Source: Enterococcus sp. DIV0212c
GTDB taxonomy: Bacteria > Bacillota > Bacilli > Lactobacillales > Enterococcaceae
NCBI RefSeq assembly: GCF_017377505.1
Contig: NZ_JAFREN010000004.1
Location: 124,001-188,000 of the forward strand
Length of the DNA: 64,000 bases
Direction of reading: 5' to 3'
In this document: piece after piece, positions 35,628 through 54,623 of the stretch
How the letters are laid out: each line of letters opens with the position of its first letter
How positions within the stretch are numbered: the stretch's first letter is position 1
Translations under genes and position numbers: made by a program
Notes under the pieces: model-generated
Told to the model about the DNA's origin: nothing
What the model saw: only the letters and a program-made list of their open reading frames with translations
The model's database searches: none

Positions 35628-36686
35628 TCATCTCACTTTTCTTAATATTTGCTTACTCAATTGACAAAAAAATTCATCTTCATGAATTCCTAAGTGATTT
35701 GTTGCGTCAAATAATGTGTTATTACAAGTTTCCCCTGTTCCAATAAGAATAACTTTTTCATTTATTTGTGGTTTTTCTTCAACAAAAATCATCGTTTGAT
35801 TCATACAAACACTAGCAATTATTCCAATTTTACTCCCTACCTGAACTTTAAAATTTTTCATCCGACTTACAAATCCATCTCCATAACCTAGCGGAATATT
35901 TACAATCCATCCTTCTCTTGGACACACATATTCAGAATTATAACCAACTGCACATCCAGCTTTTATTTTTTTCAAATGAACAACTTTGGAACATAACATA
36001 GCAATTGGTCTATTTTTAAAAATTGAATTTTCTTGATACATTCCAAAGATAGCTGCCCCAATTCTATAAATATTACCTTTATCTAACTTAGAAGAAAAAC
36101 TTGAACTACTACCACTATGAAATGAATTTACTATTTCCATTGCGTTTATTAAATATTCATTAAATAACTCATTTTCATGTTCAATAATTTTTTTATTACT
36201 TGAAGAATGATGTGTATAAATTCCTTTAAACTTTATCTTTTGATCTAAAGCTATAGAAATGATTTCATCTAATTCTTTTTTTTCAGTAATCCCTATTCTT
36301 CCTAAACCAACATCAACTGCTAAATGAGCTAAGCTACATTCCTTGGGTTTAATTGATTTAAAAAAATCTAAACTTGGGATTACAAATTCAAAGTTCAATC
36401 TATGAATTATTTCTAAATCAGTGGCGATATCAATAATTCCAAGGATAATTACTGGTTTTAAAATCCCTTTTTTTCTAAGATGAACTGCTTCTTCTAAATC
36501 AGATACACAATAGCCATCTATATAATCATCATATTTTTTTAGCAAATGAAGAATATCATTACCCAAACCGTAATTATCCGATTTACAAACCACATATAAT
36601 TTCTCTGGAGATATTAATTTAGATAGCTCCTTAATATTAGATTGAACGTTTTTTTCATTTATAATTATACAATTTTTATCATTCAT
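35628..36686 (-). CDS. Alanine-racemase-family PLP enzyme
   Basis: A fold-type III enzyme of 352 aa. The PLP lysine is Lys35 in VVCKSDNYGLG (VKANAYGHG in housekeeping Alr). The second catalytic base region is VGYNSEYVCPREGW, followed by VNIPLGYGDGF. VCMNQTMIFV matches the substrate-side Met motif. The changed PLP motif and its place inside the diaminopropionate operon suggest a dedicated amino-acid racemase acting on alanine, serine or diaminopropionate, not the cell-wall enzyme. It overlaps the stop of the queC-carrier gene by 8 bp. Confidence 0.82.
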   Translation of the reverse strand: MNDKNCIIINEKNVQSNIKELSKLISPEKLYVVCKSDNYGLGNDILHLLKKYDDYIDGYCVSDLEEAVHLRKKGILKPVIILGIIDIATDLEIIHRLNFEFVIPSLDFFKSIKPKECSLAHLAVDVGLGRIGITEKKELDEIISIALDQKIKFKGIYTHHSSSNKKIIEHENELFNEYLINAMEIVNSFHSGSSSSFSSKLDKGNIYRIGAAIFGMYQENSIFKNRPIAMLCSKVVHLKKIKAGCAVGYNSEYVCPREGWIVNIPLGYGDGFVSRMKNFKVQVGSKIGIIASVCMNQTMIFVEEKPQINEKVILIGTGETCNNTLFDATNHLGIHEDEFFCQLSKQILRKVR

Positions 36687-38052
36687 TAATTAATCTCACC
36701 TTATTAATCAATAGACCTATTTCTATTGGATTTTTATAGTTAAAATCAATCAAATATTCACCATCTATTTCAATGTCATATACATCTTCCAACAATGTTA
36801 TAAGATGTATTGCCATTAACGAATCAAATCCGAATTCTTCAAGTGGTTTAGAGGCATAGGAAGATAAATCGTAATTTTCTTCACTTTCTTTTATTTTTTT
36901 TATTAAATCTAAGATTAAATCAACATGCTCCATATCTTGTTCTACTTTATTTGTAATTTCTAAATATGCAGTTTGCATTGGGTCTACTAGATGATTTTGT
37001 TTAAATGCTTCTTCTCTTACCTTACAATCATTACAATTTCCGCATTGAATAAGTGTTTTATCACCTATCGATTTATTATGACATGTCCATGTCTGACTAA
37101 AGTCAACGTTTAAGTCGTGCCCCAACTGTACTACTTCTGTTTTCCCTCCGAATTTAAAAAGAATTGGTAAAACAGAAATATGATTGTAGTGTTGTGTCAA
37201 CTTAAGTAAATTATTCCAAATATTATAATACAGTGGATTGTTATCAGGCGAATTTACATCGTCTAAATGACTTCCGGTAATTATGTGCGTAATATCTTTA
37301 TCTTCTGAGTATGCATAATTTAAAGAGTATGCTATGAATAAAGAATTTCTAAAAGGAACATATTCATCTTTTTTATTTTTTAGAGTGATCTTCTTGTTTG
37401 ATAAGAGACCCGTAGAAAATTTAATATGATTAAAAAAAAGTTTTAACTCTTTATCAAAAGTTATATCAGCAACATCAATATTTCGTGAAACACATTGTTT
37501 TTTTACACACAATTTCTCTTCTTTAATATTATTCTGTCCATAATCATAAAAAATATATTGTTGCTTTATTTTCTCTTTTTCTAAATAAGCCGATGCAACC
37601 GTACAATCTAATCCCCCACTATAAATATTCAAAGCCGATTTAATATTTAAATTTGATAATATTTCATTTAAATAGTTTGCATTGAATTTATATTCCCTGA
37701 AATAATTATCGCTTTCAGAGAACCTTACGTTTATCTTTTTTAATGTTCCAGCATGTGCTAACCTTTTTAATGCATGTAAAAAACCACTTACATTGTCTGT
37801 TTGTTGAGCGATATACGCAATATTAACTGGGATAATAATTTCATCAGCATCATATGCTTCAGCGATAGCAATACTCAAACAATATTCAAGGATAAAATCA
37901 TTTTTGATTTTATTGCGTAATTCACTACTTAATTCAAAATACAAATCTGTTTTTGTTGTCTCTTCAAAACTATAGGAGCTATCAACAAGATTTTTATTTT
38001 CTTCAACTAAGGAAATATTTGCTGAGACCGGAATATACATTAATTTCTTCAT
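36679..38052 (-). CDS. QueC-like ATP pyrophosphatase fused to a C-terminal carrier domain
   Basis: First gene of the 12-gene operon, 457 aa from the ATG at 38052 (GAGG 6 nt upstream; an earlier in-frame ATG at 38088 has none). Residues 1-140 are an N-terminal extension absent from ordinary QueC. The PP-loop is SGGLDC (145-150), then YVPFRNSLF and GSHLDDVNSPD. The zinc site is Cys324, Cys337, Cys340, Cys343. Residues about 385-457 form an acyl/peptidyl carrier: GFDSLMAIHL with Ser411 for phosphopantetheine. QueC adenylates CDG and adds ammonia twice to give preQ0. Here the carrier suggests that a tethered amine may be used. Confidence 0.88.
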   Translation of the reverse strand: MKKLMYIPVSANISLVEENKNLVDSSYSFEETTKTDLYFELSSELRNKIKNDFILEYCLSIAIAEAYDADEIIIPVNIAYIAQQTDNVSGFLHALKRLAHAGTLKKINVRFSESDNYFREYKFNANYLNEILSNLNIKSALNIYSGGLDCTVASAYLEKEKIKQQYIFYDYGQNNIKEEKLCVKKQCVSRNIDVADITFDKELKLFFNHIKFSTGLLSNKKITLKNKKDEYVPFRNSLFIAYSLNYAYSEDKDITHIITGSHLDDVNSPDNNPLYYNIWNNLLKLTQHYNHISVLPILFKFGGKTEVVQLGHDLNVDFSQTWTCHNKSIGDKTLIQCGNCNDCKVREEAFKQNHLVDPMQTAYLEITNKVEQDMEHVDLILDLIKKIKESEENYDLSSYASKPLEEFGFDSLMAIHLITLLEDVYDIEIDGEYLIDFNYKNPIEIGLLINKVRLINE

Positions 38053-38123
38053 AAAGTACCTCACTTTTAGTATTAATAACTTATTCAATTAGATCAATTC
38101 AAAAATTAACTATTTTTATTTCC

Positions 38124-38150
38124 CTAATTGATCACTAAATCACAAATCAT
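38124..38150 (-). CDS. Possible 8-residue leader peptide upstream of the operon
   Basis: ATG ATT TGT GAT TTA GTG ATC AAT TAG is preceded by AAGGGGATGGTG. It would be the first translated frame of the queC-carrier operon leader. It may be chance. No attenuator hairpin with a T-run is obvious between it and 38052. Confidence 0.2.
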   Translation of the reverse strand: MICDLVIN

Positions 38151-38274
38151 TACATCACCATCCCCTTTTGTCCATTTTTTTAACATACTTTTATGTCTGA
38201 TAAGAACATCATCAATAAAACACGTAGTTAAAATAATTTTCAAATATTAAAAAACATCCATTATCTTTTGTAAC

Positions 38275-38327
38275 TTTAGTTGTCCTTTTAAAAATATATT
38301 GACAACTAAAAGGATTAATTGTATTTT
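38275..38327 (+). promoter_or_regulatory. Promoter with overlapping inverted-repeat operator in the divergent region
   Basis: TTGACA (38299-38304), 17-bp spacer, TATTTT (38322-38327) drive the + strand BtrH-like gene. A perfect 10-bp inverted repeat (tttagttgtc 38275-38284, gacaactaaa 38301-38310; 16-bp gap) overlaps the -35. It lies about 225 bp upstream of the leftward operon start. It is a likely operator for a regulator not encoded in the cluster. I could not fix the leftward promoter. Confidence 0.6.
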
Positions 38328-38381
38328 ATGTTATAAGAGTAACATTATTTTTTTACTAAAACAACATTAGAAGGTGATAAA

Positions 38382-39446
38382 TTGAAAAAAATACTTCCAT
38401 TTGAACATTTAACTTCAAACTTTTCTCCACCGTTAACAACTGTTCTTTCTATACTAAGTACTCGTAAAGAAACTAAGCCATGGTTGGTTAATAATCTTTT
38501 GAATATCGTTATTTCTCAGGAAAATAGCGAAGAATCTTTAAATGATTTTTTTAGAACCTCTGAATTTTTCGACTGTCAACCACTCTTGGAGTATAGATTC
38601 CCATATGCAATTATTGACACTTTAGACTATTCTTTATCAGAGATTATAGCTTTTTTACTCACTAAGAATTATTACGTCTATGGAATGTTTAACAGAAAAC
38701 ATTTTTCTGCTCTTAAAAATGATAATAGTATACATAACATGTTATTCTACGGTGTAAATGAGTTAGAAAATACTTTCTATTTTTGTGATTTTTCACCCTT
38801 AGATACGGTCATCGGTGCTCAATTAAAGCATTTTGAATGTAGCGCTTCGGAATTGGATTTAGCTATTAATGATTTTAATATCCGATCAAAAACAAGTAAT
38901 TATAAACGCAATGAAGATTCAATCATTGCGCTAAAACCTCGTGAAGTGATTAATTGTGAGTTTTCACTGACAGATCTCAAGCAATCCATTAATCTTTTTC
39001 TAGAAAGTAAAAATCTCTACTCTTTACAAATCGGCAAACCAATTCAAACACAATACAAATTCATTCCATTTTCAGAAAAAGATTCTTATATTTTTGGTAT
39101 CAATTGCTACGATAATATTTCAAAGTTTGTATTGGAAGACAAAATAGATAATCTAAAACAATTAGCTTTACTACGAGAATATGCTGCATTTTGGGATATA
39201 AGGATTGATATTTTAAACGAGTTAGGTATTTTTCCAGATCAATCTATTTTTTTAAAACTAAAACAAACCATACAAATAATCTCTAGAGATTCTAACATCT
39301 GTGTTTTATCTTATCTCAAACTAAAGCTCTCAAAAAATTACTCTATTGACAAAAAGAAACATCAACTTGAAAAAATTGCCTGTTCCGTTATTCAACAAAA
39401 AGTCAACATGTTACTCTTACTTGATACACTTTCACAAAATATTTAA
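38382..39446 (+). CDS. BtrH-like protein 1 (putative aminoacyl/acyl transferase), 354 aa
   Basis: TTG start with AAGGTGATAAA just upstream. The N-terminal half has the pattern of BtrH N-terminal and C39-like proteins: a strand series ending in NYYVYGMFNRKHF, then IHNMLFYGVNELENTFYFCDF (His, then Asp about 18 later). The C-terminal half is helical (about residues 240-350). In butirosin synthesis BtrH moves an acyl group from a carrier protein to the aminoglycoside. Here the carrier would be the one on the QueC-like protein. I see no conserved catalytic Cys with certainty. It is divergent from the operon and distantly similar to the protein at 39918-41000. Confidence 0.5.
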   Translation: MKKILPFEHLTSNFSPPLTTVLSILSTRKETKPWLVNNLLNIVISQENSEESLNDFFRTSEFFDCQPLLEYRFPYAIIDTLDYSLSEIIAFLLTKNYYVYGMFNRKHFSALKNDNSIHNMLFYGVNELENTFYFCDFSPLDTVIGAQLKHFECSASELDLAINDFNIRSKTSNYKRNEDSIIALKPREVINCEFSLTDLKQSINLFLESKNLYSLQIGKPIQTQYKFIPFSEKDSYIFGINCYDNISKFVLEDKIDNLKQLALLREYAAFWDIRIDILNELGIFPDQSIFLKLKQTIQIISRDSNICVLSYLKLKLSKNYSIDKKKHQLEKIACSVIQQKVNMLLLLDTLSQNI

Positions 39447-39529
39447 TATATAATTACTTTCTTCCATTTTCTTAATCGAAATCAGGAAAAAATCAATGTA
39501 TTCTATATTTTTTCCTGATTTTACTATAT

Positions 39530-39909
39530 GTTTTTGTTTGAAAGCTTCTTCTCTTCCTCTACAGCCATTGTGATTTCCACAACGGTTAAGTGTTTCATTA
39601 CCTGTCGATATATTATGATTTGCTCATGTCTGACAAAAATCAATGTTTAAGTTGGAGCTTAGCTGTACTACTCACCAATTTCAAAAAAAGTTTGTAAAAC
39701 AGAAGTATGTTTGTAGTAGTTTCTCAACTGACAGTAAATTATTCTTAATATTATAATATTTTGGGTAGAAAATTTAATATAATAAAAAAATTTTTACTCT
39801 CAATCAAAATTTATATTTTCCGTTCACTTATAGGAACTTTCAATAAAACACTCATTTTCTTTAACTAAAAAATGTTTGCTGAAACTAGGACATTCATTAA
39901 TATCTTCAT
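39530..39909 (-). pseudogene. Decayed second copy of the queC-carrier gene
   Basis: From the ATG at 39909 the frame reads MKILMNVLVSANIF-stop-LKK, matching MKKLMYIPVSANISLVEE of the intact gene. Upstream, the same AAGTGAGGTAC ribosome-binding region is kept. Further segments at 39745-39800 and 39530-39700 match the intact gene around 37410-37450 and 37000-37230 at the DNA level, with stops and large internal deletions. No carrier domain remains. It directly follows the BtrH-like gene at 39918, so BtrH-like and queC-carrier once formed a two-gene unit that was duplicated. Confidence 0.8.
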
Positions 39910-39917
39910 GAGGTACC

Positions 39918-41000
39918 TCACTTTTTAATAATTAATTTGAGTTTCAAGGTGAGATCAGCTAAAAAACTTTTTTCAACTTTTTCAATTATATCTATCAAAC
40001 TCAGACATTTTCCAAGTTTATTTTTATGAGATTTTTGAACATAATTTTTTAAACAAATTACTTCAAGTTGCTTAGAGTAGTTGATCATAATCTCAATACT
40101 ATCTTGATCCAAACCATCTAAAAGTAATTTATTTTCTATAAAAATAACTGCATCTTTCAGAATTTTAAAATGTGAAACTAGTAGACTACAAGACTGAACG
40201 GTTCTATACTCTCCCTGTTCAAATTCTGCCTTAAGATGTTTTCTCAAAAAATTGTATACACTGTTTCCACTACCTACCTCCAAAAGTTCTGTTTCTTCAA
40301 TTGGTCCACCTATTCCTTGAAGTCTGTGCGAAACTAAATGGAAAGAAGAAACTTGCTTTGATGAAAATTTGACATGTGTTGGATTAGAATACTCTTGAAT
40401 ATCATCAATAACGTTATTTAGATTAAATTCTAATTTTAATTTATTTGATTGAATTAAACTGGTTTTCCTTATCCAATCATCATTACCATCTTTTGGAAAA
40501 ATACCCATATATTTTTCTATAACTTCATATGCATTATAAACTTCATTTAAAGGTATCCACTGTACGCTATAGTGTTTAAAATCAAAAAAATCTCCCAATA
40601 ATACCCTTTCATTTTTTAGGTCAATGCCTATCACTATAGGACTATGAATTGTTATTTGCGCTTTAAAGTCATAAGCCTTAATTTTTGAAACATCAAGATC
40701 TAAAATTATATAGTATTTTTTAGATAGCATAGTAAACAAGAAATTACTAAATTGATTAATATTTCTGAATATTTCTTTTTCAATTTCAATATGATCTATT
40801 ACTTTTTCCTGTTTGATCTTTAAATAGGAATCATATATATGACCGTACTTTGTTTTTGTAATACTAAAACCTAGATTTAAAGCATTTAAACTTAAAAAAT
40901 TTTTTTGCTCTAAATTCATTGCAGCTAAACAAAATAAATGCGCATCATTTGTTGAAAAAGATATAAAAGGATTGCCATGAGATAATATTAATTCTTTCAA
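39918..41000 (-). CDS. BtrH-like protein 2 (putative aminoacyl/acyl transferase), 360 aa
   Basis: Same layout as the gene at 38382. The N-terminal domain has FLSLNALNLGF, KKYYIILDLDV and IHSPIVIGIDLKNERVLLGDFFDF, the His...GID...Asp pattern of C39-like and BtrH-type N-terminal domains. A helical C-terminal half follows. AGGAGTG precedes the ATG. The stop overlaps the ribosome-binding site of the queC relic. It is predicted to work on carrier-bound intermediates or to tailor the product. Function is not proved, and identity to the other copy is low. Confidence 0.5.
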   Translation of the reverse strand: MKELILSHGNPFISFSTNDAHLFCLAAMNLEQKNFLSLNALNLGFSITKTKYGHIYDSYLKIKQEKVIDHIEIEKEIFRNINQFSNFLFTMLSKKYYIILDLDVSKIKAYDFKAQITIHSPIVIGIDLKNERVLLGDFFDFKHYSVQWIPLNEVYNAYEVIEKYMGIFPKDGNDDWIRKTSLIQSNKLKLEFNLNNVIDDIQEYSNPTHVKFSSKQVSSFHLVSHRLQGIGGPIEETELLEVGSGNSVYNFLRKHLKAEFEQGEYRTVQSCSLLVSHFKILKDAVIFIENKLLLDGLDQDSIEIMINYSKQLEVICLKNYVQKSHKNKLGKCLSLIDIIEKVEKSFLADLTLKLKLIIKK

Positions 41001-46344: not shown

Positions 46345-46401
46345 CAAAAAACTTCATTCTATATATTTAAGTAAAATATACTTCAATATATAAAACGAAG
46401 T
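46345..46401 (-). terminator. Terminator after the tldR / guide-RNA unit
   Basis: Long, nearly perfect arms (46351-46367 and 46385-46401; acttcattctatatatt and its partner) are followed on the minus strand by six T. It would end the guide-RNA transcript about 20 nt past the guide. Confidence 0.7.
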
Positions 46402-46417
46402 TCAACTTTTTATTTTT

Positions 46418-46560
46418 CATCAACTAATAATTAGTGAACTATTTCTATTACTAGAAATTTCCTAGAAAAAGATAAATGATCGACTAAACGCTATATCTAT
46501 CTTATATGCCCTAGGCTATCCCTGTAGTCCCTACAGTTCTTTTATTCATTTTCTATTTAA
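46418..46560 (-). ncRNA. Predicted guide RNA (omega-RNA-like) for the TnpB-like protein
   Basis: It follows and slightly overlaps the 3' end of the TnpB-like gene, where IS605-type omega RNAs lie. Elements seen: stem-loop CTGTAG-GGA-CTACAG (46536-46522) followed by GGGATAGCC; CCTAG and CTAGG segments that can pair as a pseudoknot; a final hairpin ATTTCTA-GTAA-TAGAAAT (46458-46441) then GTTCA, as at transposon right ends. The guide is then proposed to start at about 46433 (TAATTATTAGTTGATG). The exact scaffold-guide border is my inference. Confidence 0.6.
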
Positions 46561-47681
46561 TTAGCTACTGATTCTTTTAATCCTTGAACTAATACTTGTA
46601 TACTAGCTGCAGTTTCTGGATCCTGTATTCCTTTTTTTTCGTCAATATCTTGAATAAATATTTGGCTTATGCGTTTATTATCTGAATGTTCAGAACATTT
46701 TCCGCATGCAGAAACTTTGATCAATCTTTTATTATACCAAGAGGCTTTATATTCTAATTTGGATACAAACAGTGCCCAAGAGACATCTGAGATCCCACGA
46801 TGCAACTTATTATTTCTAAAAAAATCGGCTCGATGGATATCTTCAATGCAAATCAAATCATATTTTCTAACAATTTCTGTAGTGATCTTATTTAGAAAAT
46901 CGATTCGTTGATTCATTAGCTTTTCCCGCATTTTCGCTACTTTTAGTTTTTGTTTCTGATAATTCTTTTGTTGTGAAAGTTCTATTCCTTTTACTTTTGC
47001 AATTTCTTTACGCCTTGTTAATTTTCTTTCTTCTCTAGTGATCCGCTGTTCAAATTCTTTCGTATATTTATCATTGTCGATACGTCTACCATTTGATAAT
47101 ACAGCAAATTCAGAAGCTCCTAAAGTTATCCCGATTGCAGAATAAGTCTTCTCAACTATAGGAATGTCCTCTTCACAAAGAATCGAGACAAAATACTTTT
47201 TACTCGGAGTCAAAGAAATCGTTGCGGACTTTATTTTCCCTATTACTGGACGATGCATTTTCATTTTGATCAACGATTTTAGTTTAGGCACTTTTAAGTA
47301 TTTTTCGTCAATAATCTTAATCGTACCGTTTTGATTATTCGTTGTGTAAGATGTTACAGAGTTTTTCTTTTGTTTTAACTTAGGAAAACCAACTGATTTC
47401 TCTCTATGAAAATTTTTAAATGCCCGGTCCAAGTAAACTTGTGCGTTTGATAAGGCTAAACTGTCTACTTCCTTTAAACAAGGATGCTCTTTTTTGTATT
47501 GAGCTGGTGTTGGCAATTTAACTTTTAAACCAGGATTTTCTTTCAAATTTTTATATAATTGGATTCGTTCCTGTAATAAAAGATTATGCACAAGCCGTAC
47601 ACAAGAAAAAGTTTTTTTGATAAATTCTTCTTGCAATGAAGTAGGGTAAAGTCTGTATTTATACGCCTTTAATACCTTCAT
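46557..47681 (-). CDS. tldR: TnpB-like nuclease-dead protein (TldR candidate), oppF-associated
   Basis: A 374-aa relative of IS200/IS605 TnpB. The N-terminal wedge and helical parts (YKYRLYPTSLQEEFIKKTFSCVRLVHNLLL) are complete. In the RuvC domain the first Asp is Thr186 (GITLGASEFAVLSNG instead of GIDLG). Glu280 is kept (LICIEDIH). The last Asp (DRDxNAA) is lost (IQDPETAAS, Gln353/Pro355). One zinc CxxC pair (326-329) remains and the second is gone. There is no tnpA and no transposon ends. TnpB-like nuclease-dead repressors next to oppF are known from Enterococcus, so RNA-guided repression of opp is the likely role. AAGGTGG precedes the ATG. Confidence 0.85.
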   Translation of the reverse strand: MKVLKAYKYRLYPTSLQEEFIKKTFSCVRLVHNLLLQERIQLYKNLKENPGLKVKLPTPAQYKKEHPCLKEVDSLALSNAQVYLDRAFKNFHREKSVGFPKLKQKKNSVTSYTTNNQNGTIKIIDEKYLKVPKLKSLIKMKMHRPVIGKIKSATISLTPSKKYFVSILCEEDIPIVEKTYSAIGITLGASEFAVLSNGRRIDNDKYTKEFEQRITREERKLTRRKEIAKVKGIELSQQKNYQKQKLKVAKMREKLMNQRIDFLNKITTEIVRKYDLICIEDIHRADFFRNNKLHRGISDVSWALFVSKLEYKASWYNKRLIKVSACGKCSEHSDNKRISQIFIQDIDEKKGIQDPETAASIQVLVQGLKESVAN

Positions 47682-47770: not shown

Positions 47771-47810
47771 ATTCTAGCTAAGAAAAAATAGTGCTTTTTC
47801 CTAGCTAGGA
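47771..47810 (-). terminator. Hairpin between oppF and tldR
   Basis: The arms ctagctaagaaaaaa and tttttcctagctag are followed by a short T-run on the minus strand. It probably gives partial termination of the opp transcript before tldR. Confidence 0.55.
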
Positions 47811-47827: not shown

Positions 47828-48787
47828 CTATTCTTGATTCGCTCTGGCTTTTTTCTCTTCAATTTTTTTACGATAACCTTCGACTTCATCTTCAGAACAA
47901 TATACATAATGTTCTGTTGTGATTTCTCTTAATTTACGTTCTTTGTTATCTTCTGGTTCAGGTTTATAAACGATACGCGTACGTGTACGTTCGTAATCTG
48001 GATCAGGTAATGGAATCGCAGATAGTAAACTTTCAGTATACGGATGCACACCAAAGTTATACACATCATCACTTGAACCCATTTCCAATAATCTACCGCT
48101 ATGCATAACACCGATACGGTCACTGATATGTTTTACCATTGATAAATCATGGGCAATAAACAGATAGGTCAGACCAGCATCTTTTTGTAAGTCTTGTAAT
48201 AAATTGACCACTTGGGCTTGAATCGATACATCCAAAGCTGAAATCGGCTCATCACAGATGATAAAGCGCGGATCAACAGCTAATGCTCTAGCAATTCCGA
48301 TACGTTGACGTTGACCACCGGAAAACTCATGTGGATAACGTGTACCATGACTTGGATCTAGACCAACGACTTTTAGTAATTCGTTGACTTTAGCTTCACG
48401 TTCAGCTGCATCTTTTGCCAAGTGATTAATGTCGATTCCTTCAGCAATAATATCATTGACTTTCATTCTTGGATTCAATGATGCATAAGGATCTTGGAAG
48501 ATCATTTGCACTTCTCGACGGAATGCTTGCATGCCAGATTTTGAACGAATTTTACTGATATCGTCACCATCAAAAATGATTTCTCCATCAGTCGGATCAT
48601 ATAAGCGAATCACGCTGCGACCAGTCGTTGATTTACCACTACCAGATTCTCCAACTAATCCGAATGTTTCACCTTCATAAATATGGAAGCTGATATCATC
48701 AACCGCTCTGACTTCATCAGGACGACCGACGTTAAAATATTGTTTTAGTCCTTTAACATCTAAAAGTACTTTTCTTTTTTCGCTCAT
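47828..48787 (-). CDS. oppF: Oligopeptide ABC transporter ATPase OppF
   Basis: Second ATPase of the oligopeptide importer. Walker [17 protein letters not shown]-loop MIFQDPYASLNP, signature [15 protein letters not shown] and Walker B FIICDEPISALDV are all present. The oligopeptide/dipeptide C-terminal region follows (HPYTESLLSAIPLPDP). 319 aa. Its start overlaps the oppD stop by one base. It is last gene of the oppBCDF block. Confidence 0.96.
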   Translation of the reverse strand: MSEKRKVLLDVKGLKQYFNVGRPDEVRAVDDISFHIYEGETFGLVGESGSGKSTTGRSVIRLYDPTDGEIIFDGDDISKIRSKSGMQAFRREVQMIFQDPYASLNPRMKVNDIIAEGIDINHLAKDAAEREAKVNELLKVVGLDPSHGTRYPHEFSGGQRQRIGIARALAVDPRFIICDEPISALDVSIQAQVVNLLQDLQKDAGLTYLFIAHDLSMVKHISDRIGVMHSGRLLEMGSSDDVYNFGVHPYTESLLSAIPLPDPDYERTRTRIVYKPEPEDNKERKLREITTEHYVYCSEDEVEGYRKKIEEKKARANQE

Positions 48788-49848
48788 TATTTAACGCCTC
48801 CTGTTGTTACGTTATGACGTTCAGCATAAATCGCCCAACGTCTCACAATTTCAGCTGGAGGGGTGATTTTTGGCGCTTGCGGTGCTAATAACCACGTTGC
48901 AGCTTTATGAGTTGGTGATACTTCAAAATATGGCGGCGCTTCTTCTGCGTCGATCTTCATTGCAAATTCGTTACGCGGATAAAAAGCATCTCCTTTTGGC
49001 GGGTCTAACAAATCGGGCGGTGAACCTGGAATCGCATATAATTTATCTTCGGTTCCCTCCATTGTCGGCATTGAGCCTAATAAGCCCCATGTGTACGGAT
49101 GTTGCGGGTTATAGAAGATTTCTTCTGATGTTCCTACTTCAACTAAACGTCCACCATACATTACCGCTACACGATCAGCAACATTCGCTACTACACCTAA
49201 ATCATGAGTGATAAAAATGATTGATGTGCTGATTTTTTGTTGTAAGTCTTTTAATAGTTCTAGAATTTGCGCTTGGATCGTTACATCCAAGGCTGTTGTT
49301 GGTTCATCGGCAATCAGAACTTCTGGGTAACAAATCAAAGCAATCGCGATCACGATCCGTTGACGTTGTCCACCTGAAAATTGGTGAGGATAGTTTTTCA
49401 AACGTTTTTCAGCGTTTGGAATTCCTACTAATTTTAATAATTCTAATGCTTGGTCAAGGCCTTCTTTTTTCGACACTTTATTGTGTTTGATCAAAGATTC
49501 AGCTACTTGTTTGCCGATTGGCATTGTTGGGTCCAATGAAGTCATTGGATCTTGGAAAATCATTGCAATTTCTTTCCCACGAATGGTTTGCATTTGTTTT
49601 TCCGTCTTGTGTACGATATCTTCACCTTTAAACAGAATTTCTCCATTGTCGATGTTTGCATTGCTGCTCAATAATCGCATGATACTTCTAGTAGTTACTG
49701 ATTTACCACTACCAGACTCTCCTACGATCGCTAGAGTTTCCCCTTTGAACAAATCAAAGCTAACGCCGCGAATAGCATTTACTTTTCCAGCAAACGTATC
49801 AAAAGAAATCTGTAAGTCTTTTACTTCTAATACTTTTTCCATAGTCAT
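48787..49848 (-). CDS. oppD: Oligopeptide ABC transporter ATPase OppD
   Basis: First ATPase of the importer, 353 aa. Walker [17 protein letters not shown]-loop [12 protein letters not shown], signature [15 protein letters not shown] and Walker [14 protein letters not shown]. The Opp-type tail has [12 protein letters not shown] and a proline-rich [16 protein letters not shown] segment. It starts 5 bp after oppC; a second ATG two codons on is an equally good start. Confidence 0.96.
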
Positions 49849-49853
49849 TCACT

Positions 49854-50906
49854 CTACTCTTTCATCTTAGGATCGAAGGCATCACGTAGTCCGTCAGCTA
49901 ACAAGTTGAAACAAATCATTACGACTGACAGTGTTACGGCAGGAATCCACATCAAATATGGAAGGAAACGGAACGTTTTATATCCTTCATTTAATAATGT
50001 TCCAAGTGAAGCGGTCGGCGGTCTTAATCCTAAACCGATGAAACTTAGAAACGCTTCGAAGAAAATTGCCGATGGAATACTGAACATCATTTGTACGATG
50101 ATCACACTAGAGATGTTCGGCAAAATATGTTTGATGGCGATCTTCAAACGAGATTCACCTAATGTTTGGGCAGCTAAAACAAATTCTTGATCTTTTAGTT
50201 TCAAGGTCTGAGCCCGAACAATTCTGGCCATTGAAATCCAGTTAGTAATAACCATCGCTAAAACGATTGATAAAATACCTGGATCAAAAACAGTCAGCAT
50301 CAAGATCATTACAACAAGGTTAGGAATTCCTGAAAGAACTTCTAAGATACGTTGCATCACTGTATCCACACGTCCGCCTAATAGTCCTGAAATCAAACCG
50401 TATGTTACACCGATCGTAATATCAAGTAAGGCTGCGATAAATGCGATCAATAATGAAATACGAGTTCCCATGAATAAACGGCTCAACACATCACGGCCTA
50501 AGCCATCTGTTCCTAAATAAAAGTTTAAGTTATCCGGAACATTTGCTTGCGCATACTTATCTACCATTTTACCAGCAACATTAGCTGTCCCGTTAAATCC
50601 ATTGATACTATCTAAAAATGGAATACGGGGTGGTAAATTGATGTACGCAACATTTTGCTGCGTTGGATCGTGTGGTGAAACCCAAATAGTAATAATCGAA
50701 ATAAAGATGATGATTCCTAGTAAAATCAAAGAAATTACAGCCGCTTTATTCTTTTTCAAACGGCGCCAAGAATCTTGTAAAAAGCTTAGTGACGGTGTTG
50801 CAATTCGTTCACGTTCTTTTGTTGTTGATGTATCCAAAGGTTGGAATTCATCTGCTGGAATCGTTTTGATTTTTTCTGGTACATTGTTTAAGTCAACTGT
50901 TTCCAT
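49854..50906 (-). CDS. oppC: Oligopeptide ABC transporter permease OppC
   Basis: An inner-membrane permease with six helices. A longer cytosolic N-terminus (about 50 residues) is followed by the OppC_N segment (SFLQDSWRRLKKNKAAVISLILLGIIIFIS). The EAA coupling loop is LAAQTLGESRLKIAIKHILPN. 350 aa. It overlaps oppB by one base (TAATG). Confidence 0.95.
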   Translation of the reverse strand: METVDLNNVPEKIKTIPADEFQPLDTSTTKERERIATPSLSFLQDSWRRLKKNKAAVISLILLGIIIFISIITIWVSPHDPTQQNVAYINLPPRIPFLDSINGFNGTANVAGKMVDKYAQANVPDNLNFYLGTDGLGRDVLSRLFMGTRISLLIAFIAALLDITIGVTYGLISGLLGGRVDTVMQRILEVLSGIPNLVVMILMLTVFDPGILSIVLAMVITNWISMARIVRAQTLKLKDQEFVLAAQTLGESRLKIAIKHILPNISSVIIVQMMFSIPSAIFFEAFLSFIGLGLRPPTASLGTLLNEGYKTFRFLPYLMWIPAVTLSVVMICFNLLADGLRDAFDPKMKE

Positions 50907-51856
50907 TAACCTTTGGCACCTCCTGAAACACGAATTCTTGGATCAATCAATCCATAAAGTAAATCAACGATCAAGATTACGAATACTAACAAAGCAGAGT
51001 ACAAAATTGTTACTGCCATGATCGTTGGGTAATCGTTTGTCATAATTGATTTTACAAACTGCTCCCCAATACCTGGGATAGCGAAAATATTTTCAACAAC
51101 CAATGATCCTGTCATCAAACCAACTGCTAATGGTCCTAATAAAGTAATCAAAGGAATCAAACTGTTTCTAAGTCCGTGTCTAACCGCTACTTGCCAACGG
51201 CTCAACCCTTTTGCTCGAGCTAACTCTACATAGTCACTATGTAAAACTTCAACCATCTCGGTTCGTATAAACCTGGCGGAATCGGCCATGGGACTCATCG
51301 CTAATGCGATTGTTGGAAGAATTGTGTAAGCAAATCCATTCCACATAGCAATCGGCAACACTTTTAATTTCATGGCGAATATATATTGCAACAATACCGC
51401 AAAGACAAAGTTAGGAATCGATCTCCCTAAAATAGCCATTAACGTTGCTAATGTATCTACCCATGTGTTTTGGCGCATCGCTGCAATGATTCCTAGTAAA
51501 ATACCGACTAGTGTACCAAAGATAATAGCTTGTGCCCCTAACTGGACTGATGGTCCGATACGGCCTGCTAAAAGTTTTGCAACTGGTTGATTTTTAAATT
51601 GGAATGAAATCCCAAAATCACCCACGACAAGATTCTTTAAGTAAATTCCATATTGAACGATTACTGGTTTATCCAAGCCAGATTGCTTGTTCAACATAGC
51701 GATTGTTTCTGGACTAAGTTTTTCTTGGTTGGTATAAGGAGTACCTGGTAATAATTGCATTAAGAAAAACGTAATCGTTGCGATCAACCACAATGTGACG
51801 ATCATAAAGAAGACCCGTTTAAGAAAATATTTTCCAAAACTGTTCAAGAATGACAC
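50906..51856 (-). CDS. oppB: Oligopeptide ABC transporter permease OppB
   Basis: A partner permease of 316 aa with about six helices. The N-terminus (YFLKRVFFMIVTLWLIATITFFLMQLLPG) and the coupling loop (YVELARAKGLSRWQVAVRHGLRN) are diagnostic. It lies about 500 bp downstream of oppA and is separated from it by a gene on the other strand, so oppBCDF either reads through from oppA or has its own promoter. Confidence 0.95.
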   Translation of the reverse strand: MSFLNSFGKYFLKRVFFMIVTLWLIATITFFLMQLLPGTPYTNQEKLSPETIAMLNKQSGLDKPVIVQYGIYLKNLVVGDFGISFQFKNQPVAKLLAGRIGPSVQLGAQAIIFGTLVGILLGIIAAMRQNTWVDTLATLMAILGRSIPNFVFAVLLQYIFAMKLKVLPIAMWNGFAYTILPTIALAMSPMADSARFIRTEMVEVLHSDYVELARAKGLSRWQVAVRHGLRNSLIPLITLLGPLAVGLMTGSLVVENIFAIPGIGEQFVKSIMTNDYPTIMAVTILYSALLVFVILIVDLLYGLIDPRIRVSGGAKG

Positions 51857-51928: not shown

Positions 51929-52276
51929 ATGAAAAATTTTAAATGGCCCTTGATTACCTCAGCGGTCTCAAGCATTGGTATTTTTACTTACCTATTGATA
52001 AAGCAGTCACTGACTATCCGTTCTATATCTGATACCTTTTTCATCGTTTCATTATTCTTTTTGATTATCGGCTTAGCCATGTGGATTATGTCCTCAGGAT
52101 TTTTTGATAATTTCCAACGTTTTATGAAAATGCATTTCCGTTTTAAGAAGAAAAATGAACCGAAAGAATTCATCCCATTTTCAGAGATCGGTAAAGCACA
52201 TCAGCTTTACTGGCTTGAAACTGGAGGTATTTTGCTGATCGTCTCTATCGTTTCTTTATTATTTTACTTTTTATGA
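51929..52276 (+). CDS. DUF3899-type small membrane protein
   Basis: 115 aa with three predicted helices (WPLITSAVSSIGIFTYLLI, ISDTFFIVSLFFLIIGLAMWIM, LYWLETGGILLIVSIVSLLFYF) and a basic loop, as in DUF3899 proteins. Function unknown. It lies on the opposite strand between oppB and oppA, head-to-head with oppB, so its transcript is antisense to any oppA-oppB read-through RNA. Confidence 0.7.
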   Translation: MKNFKWPLITSAVSSIGIFTYLLIKQSLTIRSISDTFFIVSLFFLIIGLAMWIMSSGFFDNFQRFMKMHFRFKKKNEPKEFIPFSEIGKAHQLYWLETGGILLIVSIVSLLFYFL

Positions 52277-52352: not shown

Positions 52353-54029
52353 CTATTCTGAAATGTATGTCCATTTGTAATCGTATTGCGCGCCTGCTGG
52401 ATGGAAACCAACATCTTTTACTTTCTCAGCACGTAAGTGCGCTTCAGCTTTTTGATAAAGAGGAATTACACCCATGTCGCCCATGATTGTTTTCTCTGCA
52501 TCAACCATATTTTCCCAACGTTTTTCAGGATCATTCGCATTTGTAGTTGAAGCTTCTTTTATTAATTTGTCGTATTCAGGATTACTGTAACGTCCACGGT
52601 TATATGGTACGCCTGTTTGGAATAAATCTAAGAAACTACTTGGATCTACATAATCAGCTCCCCAGCCTCCGATAACAGCTTTGAAATCACCTTTATTTGA
52701 GCGGTCTAAACGTACAGAAAGTGGTACTGGACTAACAGTAACTTTGGTACCTTCTAAGGCTTCTTGAATCGCACCTTGAATGTACTCAACTGTTTTCTTA
52801 GATGAATCCGCATCAGAAGATAAGATATCGATATCTAATGTTTTAATCCCTAATTCTTTCTTCGCTTTTTCCCAATGTTCTTTGGCTTTTTCTTTATCGT
52901 AGGTAATCTTGTCTTCAGCTGCTACAGTAAAGTCTTCTTTTCCATCTGGAGATGTAGACATATCAGCTGGAACTAAGCCTTTAGGTTCTACTGAACCATC
53001 ACCAAGGATTTGTTCAACTAAAGATTTACGGTCGATTGAATAAGAAATCGCTTTTCTTAGGTTTTCATTTTTGTATGGTGATTTCTCGTCCATTTGATTT
53101 AATTCCATATATTGAGTTGTTGCTTCTTTTTGGATGACAAGTTGTGGATCATTCGCAGCTTGTTGAGCTAATTCGCCGGTCAAGGTTACATCATCTGCTT
53201 GTCCATCTTGGAATAAGTTGTATGAAGTCGGTGCTTCTTTCACTACATTTGTTTTTACTTCATCCAATTTTACAGAATCTACATCCCAATAATCTTTATT
53301 TTTCTTATATGACCACTCTGTATCTGTACCTGCTCCGTCGAAGCCGTCCAAGACAAATGGTCCATTATAAACTGATTTTTCACTTGTTGCAGCGTAGTCT
53401 TTACCATATTTTTCCACGATATCTTTTCTTTGTGGGAAGAATGATGGGAATGCTAATAGATAGTCAAAGTATGGTGTCGCTTTTTCTAATGTGATTTCTA
53501 ATTCGTAATCACCTACAGCTTTGATTCCTAATTCAGCTTTGTCTTTTTTACCCGCAGCGATATCTGCACCATTTTTTACTGATTCGTAAAGGTAAGCATA
53601 TTCTGAAGCTGTTGCAGGATCAACCGTACGTTGCCATCCATAAACGTAGTCTTCTGCTTTTACAGGTTTGCCGTCTGACCATTTAGCTTTTTCGTTTAAT
53701 TTGATTTTGTAAGTAATACCATCTTCACTGACTTCTGCTTTTTCAGCAGCCCCAGCAGGTTCTGGTTTATTATCTAAGTTCAAACGATAGATTCCTTCAT
53801 ATACATTGTTTAAAGCAGAAAAACTGATCGTGTCGGTTGCTAAAGATAGATCCGCACTTGGCATCTCCTGTAAAACATTAACACGGAAAACTTGCTCTCC
53901 ACTTGGTTTACCACCGGATGCTTTTGAGCTACTTGAATCGTCTGTTTTTGCGCCGCCATTACCACATGCTGCTAGTGATAAACTAAATAAAGTGATGAAT
54001 CCAAAAGCAAATGACTTCTTTAAGTTCAT
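52353..54029 (-). CDS. oppA: Oligopeptide-binding lipoprotein OppA
   Basis: Extracellular peptide-binding protein held by a lipid anchor. The signal peptide ends in the lipobox LSLAAC (Cys22). The mature part starts with a Ser/Lys-rich linker. The SBP_bac_5 fold follows: LNNVYEGIYRLN, KLNEKAKWSDGKPVKAEDYVYGW (family signature) and GGWGADYVDPSSFLDLF. 558 aa. It delivers peptides to OppBCDF for nutrition and possibly pheromone uptake. It is the best candidate target of the RNA-guided repressor downstream of oppF. Confidence 0.95.
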   Translation of the reverse strand: MNLKKSFAFGFITLFSLSLAACGNGGAKTDDSSSSKASGGKPSGEQVFRVNVLQEMPSADLSLATDTISFSALNNVYEGIYRLNLDNKPEPAGAAEKAEVSEDGITYKIKLNEKAKWSDGKPVKAEDYVYGWQRTVDPATASEYAYLYESVKNGADIAAGKKDKAELGIKAVGDYELEITLEKATPYFDYLLAFPSFFPQRKDIVEKYGKDYAATSEKSVYNGPFVLDGFDGAGTDTEWSYKKNKDYWDVDSVKLDEVKTNVVKEAPTSYNLFQDGQADDVTLTGELAQQAANDPQLVIQKEATTQYMELNQMDEKSPYKNENLRKAISYSIDRKSLVEQILGDGSVEPKGLVPADMSTSPDGKEDFTVAAEDKITYDKEKAKEHWEKAKKELGIKTLDIDILSSDADSSKKTVEYIQGAIQEALEGTKVTVSPVPLSVRLDRSNKGDFKAVIGGWGADYVDPSSFLDLFQTGVPYNRGRYSNPEYDKLIKEASTTNANDPEKRWENMVDAEKTIMGDMGVIPLYQKAEAHLRAEKVKDVGFHPAGAQYDYKWTYISE

Positions 54030-54078
54030 TCTTTTTTCCTCCCTATATAGACCCTAAGTATTTTCTGAAAAATCAGAA

Positions 54079-54096
54079 TTTAATAATTATTTATTG
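54079..54096 (+). promoter_or_regulatory. Candidate TldR target site at the oppA transcription start
   Basis: TTTAA (54079-54083), a canonical TnpB-type flanking motif, is followed by TAATTATTTATTG (54084-54096). The proposed guide TAATTATTAGTTG matches at 11 of 13 positions (1-8 and 11-13). The site lies just after the predicted oppA start point, where a bound complex would block RNA polymerase. The local sequence is near-palindromic, so the opposite strand also gives a 9-nt match (TAATTATTA) but with a non-standard flank. Confidence 0.45.
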
Positions 54097-54107
54097 TACT
54101 GAGGTAT

Positions 54108-54136
54108 AGTTTACAATTTTTAAATTAAAAAATCAA
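54108..54136 (-). promoter_or_regulatory. Predicted oppA promoter
   Basis: TTGATT (54131-54136), 17-bp spacer, TAAACT (54108-54113), giving a start near 54101 and a leader of about 70 nt before the GGGAGG ribosome-binding site. Confidence 0.6.
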
Positions 54137-54214: not shown

Positions 54215-54463
54215 AAAAGTAGAACGGGCTCGTTCAGCCTTGACTGAAAAATAGGAAAACATGAGGGTGGCGCTTTTGGGCACAATCAGGTTTTATCTTT
54301 TTTCCGAAAGGCTAGCCCGTGAAGCTAGATTAGATAAAAAGTGGAACGGGCTCGTTCAGCCTTGACTGAAAAATAGGAAAACATGAGGGTGACGCTTTTG
54401 GACACAATCAGGTTTTATCTTTTTTCCGAAAGGCTAGCCCGTGATACTAGATTAGATAAAAAG
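54215..54463. repeat. Two tandem copies of a 122-bp structured repeat
   Basis: gaacgggctcg recurs at 54222 and 54344; the units differ at only a few positions. Each unit has long-range arms ACGGGCT...GCCTT and AAGGC-T-AGCCCGT that can pair over about 90 nt, with a conserved interior. No coding frame. It could be a MITE-like element or a duplicated structured RNA, lying between divergent oppA and the FUSC gene. Confidence 0.8.
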
Positions 54464-54623
54464 CGATTGTCATGTTATAAAAAAGTATGTTAGATTAGTA
54501 TATAGAAGAAACACAGTATGACGAGTTCCGAAATTTTTTTCTTTTTCAATCTCATGATTCAATTTCCAGCAGCTCATAAAAGATTTTTACTGTGCTTCTC
54601 CGTAATAAATAAGGAGTGATTAG

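Follow-up and report, generated by a model that had tools for sequence, protein, structure and literature searches.

A nuclease-dead TnpB homologue downstream of oppF in an Enterococcus genome, its Ref70 guide RNA and a predicted target site at oppA

Introduction

What does a TnpB homologue with a degraded nuclease site do beside a peptide-uptake operon, and where would its RNA lead it? This question is raised by a locus in Enterococcus sp. DIV0212c, which we examined within a stretch of 64,000 nucleotides (hereafter the window) of a 3.54 Mb genome (G000). A preliminary description, made from the letters of the window, had proposed a nuclease-dead TnpB (TldR) with its own guide RNA behind oppF that represses peptide uptake in the same cell.

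An oppF-associated TldR group of enterococci was reportedly described by Wiegand et al. in Nature in 2024, and this group is reportedly likewise derived from TnpB, inactive in RuvC, adjoining oppF and provided with a guide RNA at its 3' flank. Our literature search, which did not reach as far as the founding TldR paper, found no report of targets for oppF-associated TldRs.

Results

A TnpB homologue with a degraded nuclease site

The gene, which we call tldR, and the opp genes beside it are laid out as follows.

46557..47681, minus strand: tldR, 374-aa nuclease-dead TnpB homologue (T186, E280, Glu at the RuvC-III Asp position, Zn ribbon mostly deleted)
47774..47808, minus strand: terminator-like hairpin between oppF and tldR (terminator scan)
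47828..48787, minus strand: oppF, ATPase (best models OppF, under the NCBIfam cut-offs)
48787..49848, minus strand: oppD, ATPase (ABC_tran and oligo_HPY)
49854..50906, minus strand: oppC (Opp3C, over the cut-off)
50906..51856, minus strand: oppB (Opp3B, over the cut-off)
52353..54029, minus strand: oppA, peptide-binding lipoprotein (SBP_bac_5), the predicted repressed gene

Comparing the 374-aa product with known proteins, we found it to be a full-length relative of TnpB, as first described. It matches Pfam HTH_OrfB_IS605 and OrfB_IS605, its residues 5-326 align with ISDra2 TnpB (8h1j) in phmmer at E 3.9e-48, and its AlphaFold2 model (mean pLDDT 84.7, pTM 0.62) has 8h1j (E 1.1e-22) and 8exa as best Foldseek matches. 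Fold and sequence are held in common with ISDra2 TnpB (8h1j, 8exa, 8bf8) at 29-30% identity by Foldseek, whereas TldR lacks the catalytic Asp, most of the Zn ribbon and the transposon left end.

Alignment with relatives bore out that Thr186 occupies the RuvC-I Asp position (GITLG versus GIDLG) and that Glu280 is retained, and revealed that the Zn ribbon is largely deleted. The third Asp had been called lost; the position is indeed no longer Asp, but it is filled by Glu (DPETAAS versus DRDINAS). The RuvC D-E-D triad of the active IS200/IS605 TnpB nuclease is thereby not intact in the tldR product, and from this loss of catalytic residues the TldR complex most likely does not cut DNA. Across the aligned proteins the RuvC-I Asp is absent from all 67 opp-linked homologues and present in all 26 close transposon TnpB copies. 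The reading frame is open in all 21 copies from the genus of the window, and dN/dS of 0.05-0.09, calculated for eight pairs of the window gene with a genus relative that we selected from the 20 possible, indicates purifying selection. Relatives of the window protein, at 91-73% identity, come from E. ureasiticus, E. ureilyticus, E. moraviensis, E. caccae and others.

Turning to its surroundings, tldR does lie directly downstream of oppF, the next gene upstream, with 146 bp and the terminator-like hairpin between them, and the promoter scan called no promoter directly upstream of tldR. Neither a tnpA nor element ends had been seen in the preliminary description. The former held across the entire genome, in which the Pfam Y1_Tnp profile (PF01797) had 0 matches. 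The latter held for the left end, since the left-end motif of the relatives found in the window a single, chance-level match with three mismatches, but not for the right end, the equivalent of which is retained in a scaffold ending TTCAC at the same point as the transposon copies end.

Evaluating the ancestry of these proteins by phylogeny (79 of 110 proteins, near-duplicates and fragments omitted), we found that the TldRs of genera g1 and g2 form one group and those of other genera another. In a second tree of 46 chosen rows that included TnpBs of other families, all TldRs fall on one side of a branch that has support 93/79 and is not starred. Independent domestication of the g1/g2 and the other oppF-linked TldRs was considered, since g1 is nearer to transposon TnpB in identity, and is disfavoured by this single branch. 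As judged from these trees, a single domestication, with later losses in some lineages, would be the simplest account, and it is the one we favour.

Additional tldR-like copies were also observed. One locus (L231; G057:C1:329000-341000, plus strand) is a second, divergent opp-like operon with its own nuclease-dead tldR, a guide starting TAATTAT and, roughly 130 nt before the oppA-like gene of that operon, a TTTAATAATTATT site. Copies away from opp (L232 to L238) lie mostly near rlmN-like or GNAT acetyltransferase-like genes in our reading of the ORFs; L232, L233, L235 and L236 keep the scaffold and the guide TAATTAT, and directly downstream of the tldR-like copy in L234, L237 and L238 we found no guide RNA.

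Elsewhere in the window, positions 35628-41000 hold a group of genes for, among others, a QueC + phosphopantetheine-binding protein (36679-38088) and two proteins (38382-39446 and 39918-41000) that had no Pfam match; the group may be an uncharacterised biosynthetic cluster.

A Ref70 guide RNA at the 3' flank of tldR

The flank downstream of tldR carries the following features.

46422..46542, minus strand: guide RNA, Rfam RF02841 Ref70 (scaffold and first 12 guide nt; Rfam match)
46522..46536, minus strand: first scaffold hairpin, CTGTAG-GGA-CTACAG (sequence and consensus fold)
46422..46433, minus strand, read 46433 to 46422: guide TAATTATTAGTT, nt 1-8 of which match the oppA site
46346..46400, minus strand: terminator-like hairpin plus T run beyond the guide RNA (by eye; not called by the strict scan)

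A structured RNA with this first hairpin (46536..46522) and a terminal hairpin had been described here from the sequence, and both were recovered, the latter as a terminator-like structure at 46400..46352 that we read by eye and that the scan did not call. Searching Rfam, we found that the region (46542..46422) matches RF02841 Ref70 end to end (model positions 1-122 of 122) at 131 bits, over a gathering threshold of 115, with E 1.4e-26. Rfam describes this family merely as an sRNA, 'Enterococcus sRNA 70', and the name ref70 is absent from the literature found by our search. Among six further sources searched for Ref70, L119 has it next to its tldR (117.6 bits), L231 and L171 have matches below threshold, and L163, L122 and L033, the last a transposon copy, had no match at E 0.01.

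All 21 genus copies share a strongly conserved 3' flank of tldR, the last letters of which before the guide are AGTTCAC, and the same AGTTCAC ends the RNA region in the 26 transposon TnpB copies, taken from other genera (one of them, L067, with an internal stop), after which the sequence varies copy by copy. Because all 26 turn variable after TTCAC, we place the guide start at window position 46433, such that the guide begins TAATTATT. All 67 opp-linked tldR loci have the guide start TAATTAT.

Consensus folding after identical rows were dropped (22 of 22, 43 of 45 and 24 of 26 kept) gave for the group of the window the first hairpin, a long-range helix (CCUAGGG with UUCUAGG) and the terminal hairpin; these scaffold helices have counterparts of different sequence in the transposon TnpB RNAs, and the fold of the 43 RNAs from outside g1 and g2 recovered the first hairpin only. 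In most transposon TnpB copies this hairpin reads CCGTAG-GAA-CTACGG, one pair differing on both sides. The left end was found by motif in 21 of the 26 transposon copies and not located by motif in the other five, and the boundary proved to be TTTAA in 20 and TTTAT in one; on the basis of these boundaries we presume that TTTAA is the TAM for the TldR guide.

A predicted target downstream of the oppA promoter

With TAM and guide start in hand, the window genome offers the following arrangement before oppA.

54079..54091, plus strand: predicted TldR target, TAM TTTAA (54079-54083) followed by TAATTATT (54084-54091) (genome search)
54108..54136, minus strand: predicted oppA promoter, -35 TTGATT (54136-54131), 17-nt spacer, -10 TAAACT (54113-54108)
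54059..54073, minus strand: CodY-like box ATTTTTCAGAAAATA beside the target (compared with the CodY consensus)

The 13-mer of TTTAA and TAATTATT has a single occurrence in the 3.54 Mb genome, at window positions 54079-54091, which places it 49 nt before the oppA start codon (54029, minus strand) and downstream of the predicted promoter. This promoter was not called by the consensus promoter scan; both of its boxes are retained in the window and 20 other loci of the genus, with the stretch from -10 to target varying. The match is nearly palindromic and permits readings on both strands, and we chose the strand by the TAM, dropping the coding-strand reading (TAATTATTA) because TTTAA stands 5' of the match on the opposite strand only. 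A second exact 12-nt guide match, intergenic at G000:C38:61205-61216 (L041), has no TTTAA flank and was not counted. The brevity of the match is a point against the specificity of targeting at oppA, as TAM plus the first six guide nucleotides occurs eight times in the window genome.

Beside the target lies the palindrome at 54059..54073, which resembles the CodY consensus. A related 11-mer, AATTTTCAGAA, occurs in 38 of the 67 upstreams with tldR and 11 of the 19 without. Farther upstream of oppA, near-identical repeats with a GAACGAGCCCGTTC hairpin were noticed by eye (window 54222-54480, minus strand), and several genomes of the genus have repeats of similar appearance ahead of livJ.

Target and tldR co-occur across Enterococcaceae

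We set out the presence of guide, target and tldR over all opp loci available. An oppC orthologue is found in 85 of 105 Enterococcaceae genomes, with two in G007, giving 86 opp loci, all of which were examined, and a TnpB-like ORF follows oppF in 67 of them. Counting TTTAATAATTA (TTTAA plus TAATTA) at 160 nt or less upstream of either of the two nearest oppA genes, we found the site at all 67 loci that have tldR and at none of the 19 that lack it. Of all 11-mers in the oppA upstreams of tldR loci, this one, counted together with its reverse complement, is the most frequent. Guide and target match over 6 nt in 12 loci, 7 in 34, 8 in 20 and 9 in one.

Smaller comparisons follow the same pattern. 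G007 (the L138/L183 pair) provides a within-genome control, with tldR and target at one opp locus and neither at the other, and two genomes (G024 and G058) have neither tldR nor site at opp whereas their genus-mates have both, each carrying elsewhere one TnpB-like gene (L190, L189) that keeps the RuvC-I Asp. On a tree of OppB plus OppC each trait changes four times, and the three supported independent contrasts all agree (p 0.25), which, though concordant, is too few for significance. A further point against targeting at oppA is that the oppA upstream sequences are A+T-rich and mutually related.

Two single loci stood out. The tldR-bearing opp locus of G007 sits on a long branch of the OppB plus OppC tree, which may mean transfer, and in L164 (G049) the opp-linked tldR appears broken (a 228-aa fragment) with guide and target still present.

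Our best explanation, which we put at a probability of about 0.85, is that the oppF-linked TldR is an RNA-guided, non-cutting DNA-binding protein directed by Ref70 to the oppA site, repressing oppA. TldR would bind Ref70, transcribed from the 3' flank of the tldR gene itself, the TTTAA TAM together with the seed TAATTATT would steer the complex to 54079-54091, just downstream of the predicted oppA promoter, and the complex would there sterically block RNA polymerase, such that less OppA peptide-binding protein would be made. The predicted direct target is oppA, and other transport promoters may also be targets. Control of oppBCDF and tldR is not implied, because an opposite-strand ORF (51929-52276) separates oppA from oppBCDF-tldR, and nor is negative feedback on tldR, because of that ORF and of the terminator-like hairpin between oppF and tldR.

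Further candidate targets and alternative readings

Could the complex bind as proposed and yet serve mainly another end? Evaluating the window genome for TAM plus the first seven guide nucleotides, we found three sites, namely at oppA, 196 nt before a livJ-like gene (Peripla_BP_6), and between M20 peptidase and NUDIX genes (L111/L266); none of the other sites read stood ahead of the gene that follows this last one. Upstream of livJ-like genes the site is present in 18 of 22 genus genomes (17 within 330 nt, the 18th at -436), where it directly follows a conserved -10-like box and has a CodY-like box upstream of it, and it is absent in the genus genomes G072, G075, G082 and G085. From this arrangement the livJ-like gene is tentatively a second TldR target in the genus.

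Setting aside 21 oppA and 18 livJ sites from the genus total of 82 leaves 43, of which 42 were read (all but G073:C15). Six of these lie 53-71 nt before an opp-type ATPase gene, and one lies 103 nt before a look-alike gene (L329). Sites at the opp-type ATPase gene occur in 7 of 22 genus genomes and at a second oppA-like gene in 3 of 22, and Pfam assigns ABC_tran plus oligo_HPY to the ATPase gene of L315 and SBP_bac_5 to the second oppA-like gene of L267. The others are scattered, two of them standing before a murC-like gene (L316, L319) in our ORF reading.

On these sites a guide match of 6-8 nt may act like a transcription-factor motif, one TldR with Ref70 running a nutrient-uptake regulon in parallel to CodY. 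Its members would be oppA at every opp locus that has tldR next to it, livJ in the majority of genus genomes and, for some species, an opp-type ATPase operon and a second oppA; during divergence of the clades, sites would have appeared, disappeared and changed strand or position within the promoter. We hold this regulon as a possibility and not a finding, because the 82 sites of the genus show no excess over the 106 of a reversed-pattern control. The livJ site, moreover, is found in 0 of 22 livJ loci of other genera (16 from genomes with an opp-linked tldR, six from genomes without), and G073 keeps its livJ site, yet no oppC and no tldR were found there (tldR searched to E 1e-5). That such a multi-promoter regulon, or something else than simple oppA repression, is the main role of the complex is compatible with our best explanation and seems to us somewhat unlikely.

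Placement of the sites bears on a second alternative, in which Ref70 is an ordinary antisense sRNA on the oppA mRNA leader and TldR at most a chaperone. Rfam classes Ref70 as an sRNA, and for the window and its genus the predicted 5' leader of oppA is complementary to the guide. The 22 loci of g1 and g2, the window included, have the site on the non-coding strand, downstream of the predicted promoter. In the remaining 45 of 67 loci (genera g3-g10 and g17), however, TAM and seed are on the coding strand, where no complementary oppA transcript would be expected; 44 of these sites fall between TTGNNN and NANNNT hexamers (-35/-10-like) spaced by 16-18 nt, and the 45th is cut by a contig end. These coding-strand sites still have the TTTAA flank and accompany tldR. 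Because pairing with oppA mRNA does not explain coding-strand placement, we consider a plain antisense sRNA improbable. Both site placements should hinder RNA polymerase.

That tldR is a decaying, functionless remnant of an IS200/IS605 tnpB, as its degraded RuvC and Zn ribbon, the absent tnpA and left end and the fragmented copies elsewhere (L164, L195) might suggest, is highly improbable given open frames in 21 of 21 genus copies, dN/dS of 0.05-0.09 and the joint conservation of guide and target.

Discussion

Sequence, fold, RNA-family match and the pairing of guide with target together support the preliminary description of a TldR with its own guide RNA behind oppF, and its proposal that peptide uptake is repressed gains comparative support from the 67 of 67 versus 0 of 19 loci. 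That the protein binds RNA and DNA, does not cut, represses transcription and serves to control peptide uptake alongside a CodY-like box is what we infer from these patterns. The evidence supports placing the tldR of the window in the known oppF-associated kind, and no feature contradicts its membership.

A functional parallel is the fliC-associated TldR of Enterobacter prophages, which is reported to repress with a seed of as few as 6 nt (PMC13418256). The two systems have in common an inactive RuvC, an adjacent guide RNA, a short seed and promoter targeting, with repression reported there and predicted here; the fliC-associated TldR sits in a prophage with a flagellin gene, whereas the tldR of the window is beside oppF and its predicted target is a nutrient transporter gene.

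For the oppF-linked TldR across Enterococcaceae, a specific and testable target is now proposed, and Ref70, until now an orphan sRNA family, is tied to a likely protein partner and function. The loci also form a natural series for comparing an RNA-guided repressor with its guide and target across many species, including clades with the site on the other strand and clades in which both tldR and site are absent.
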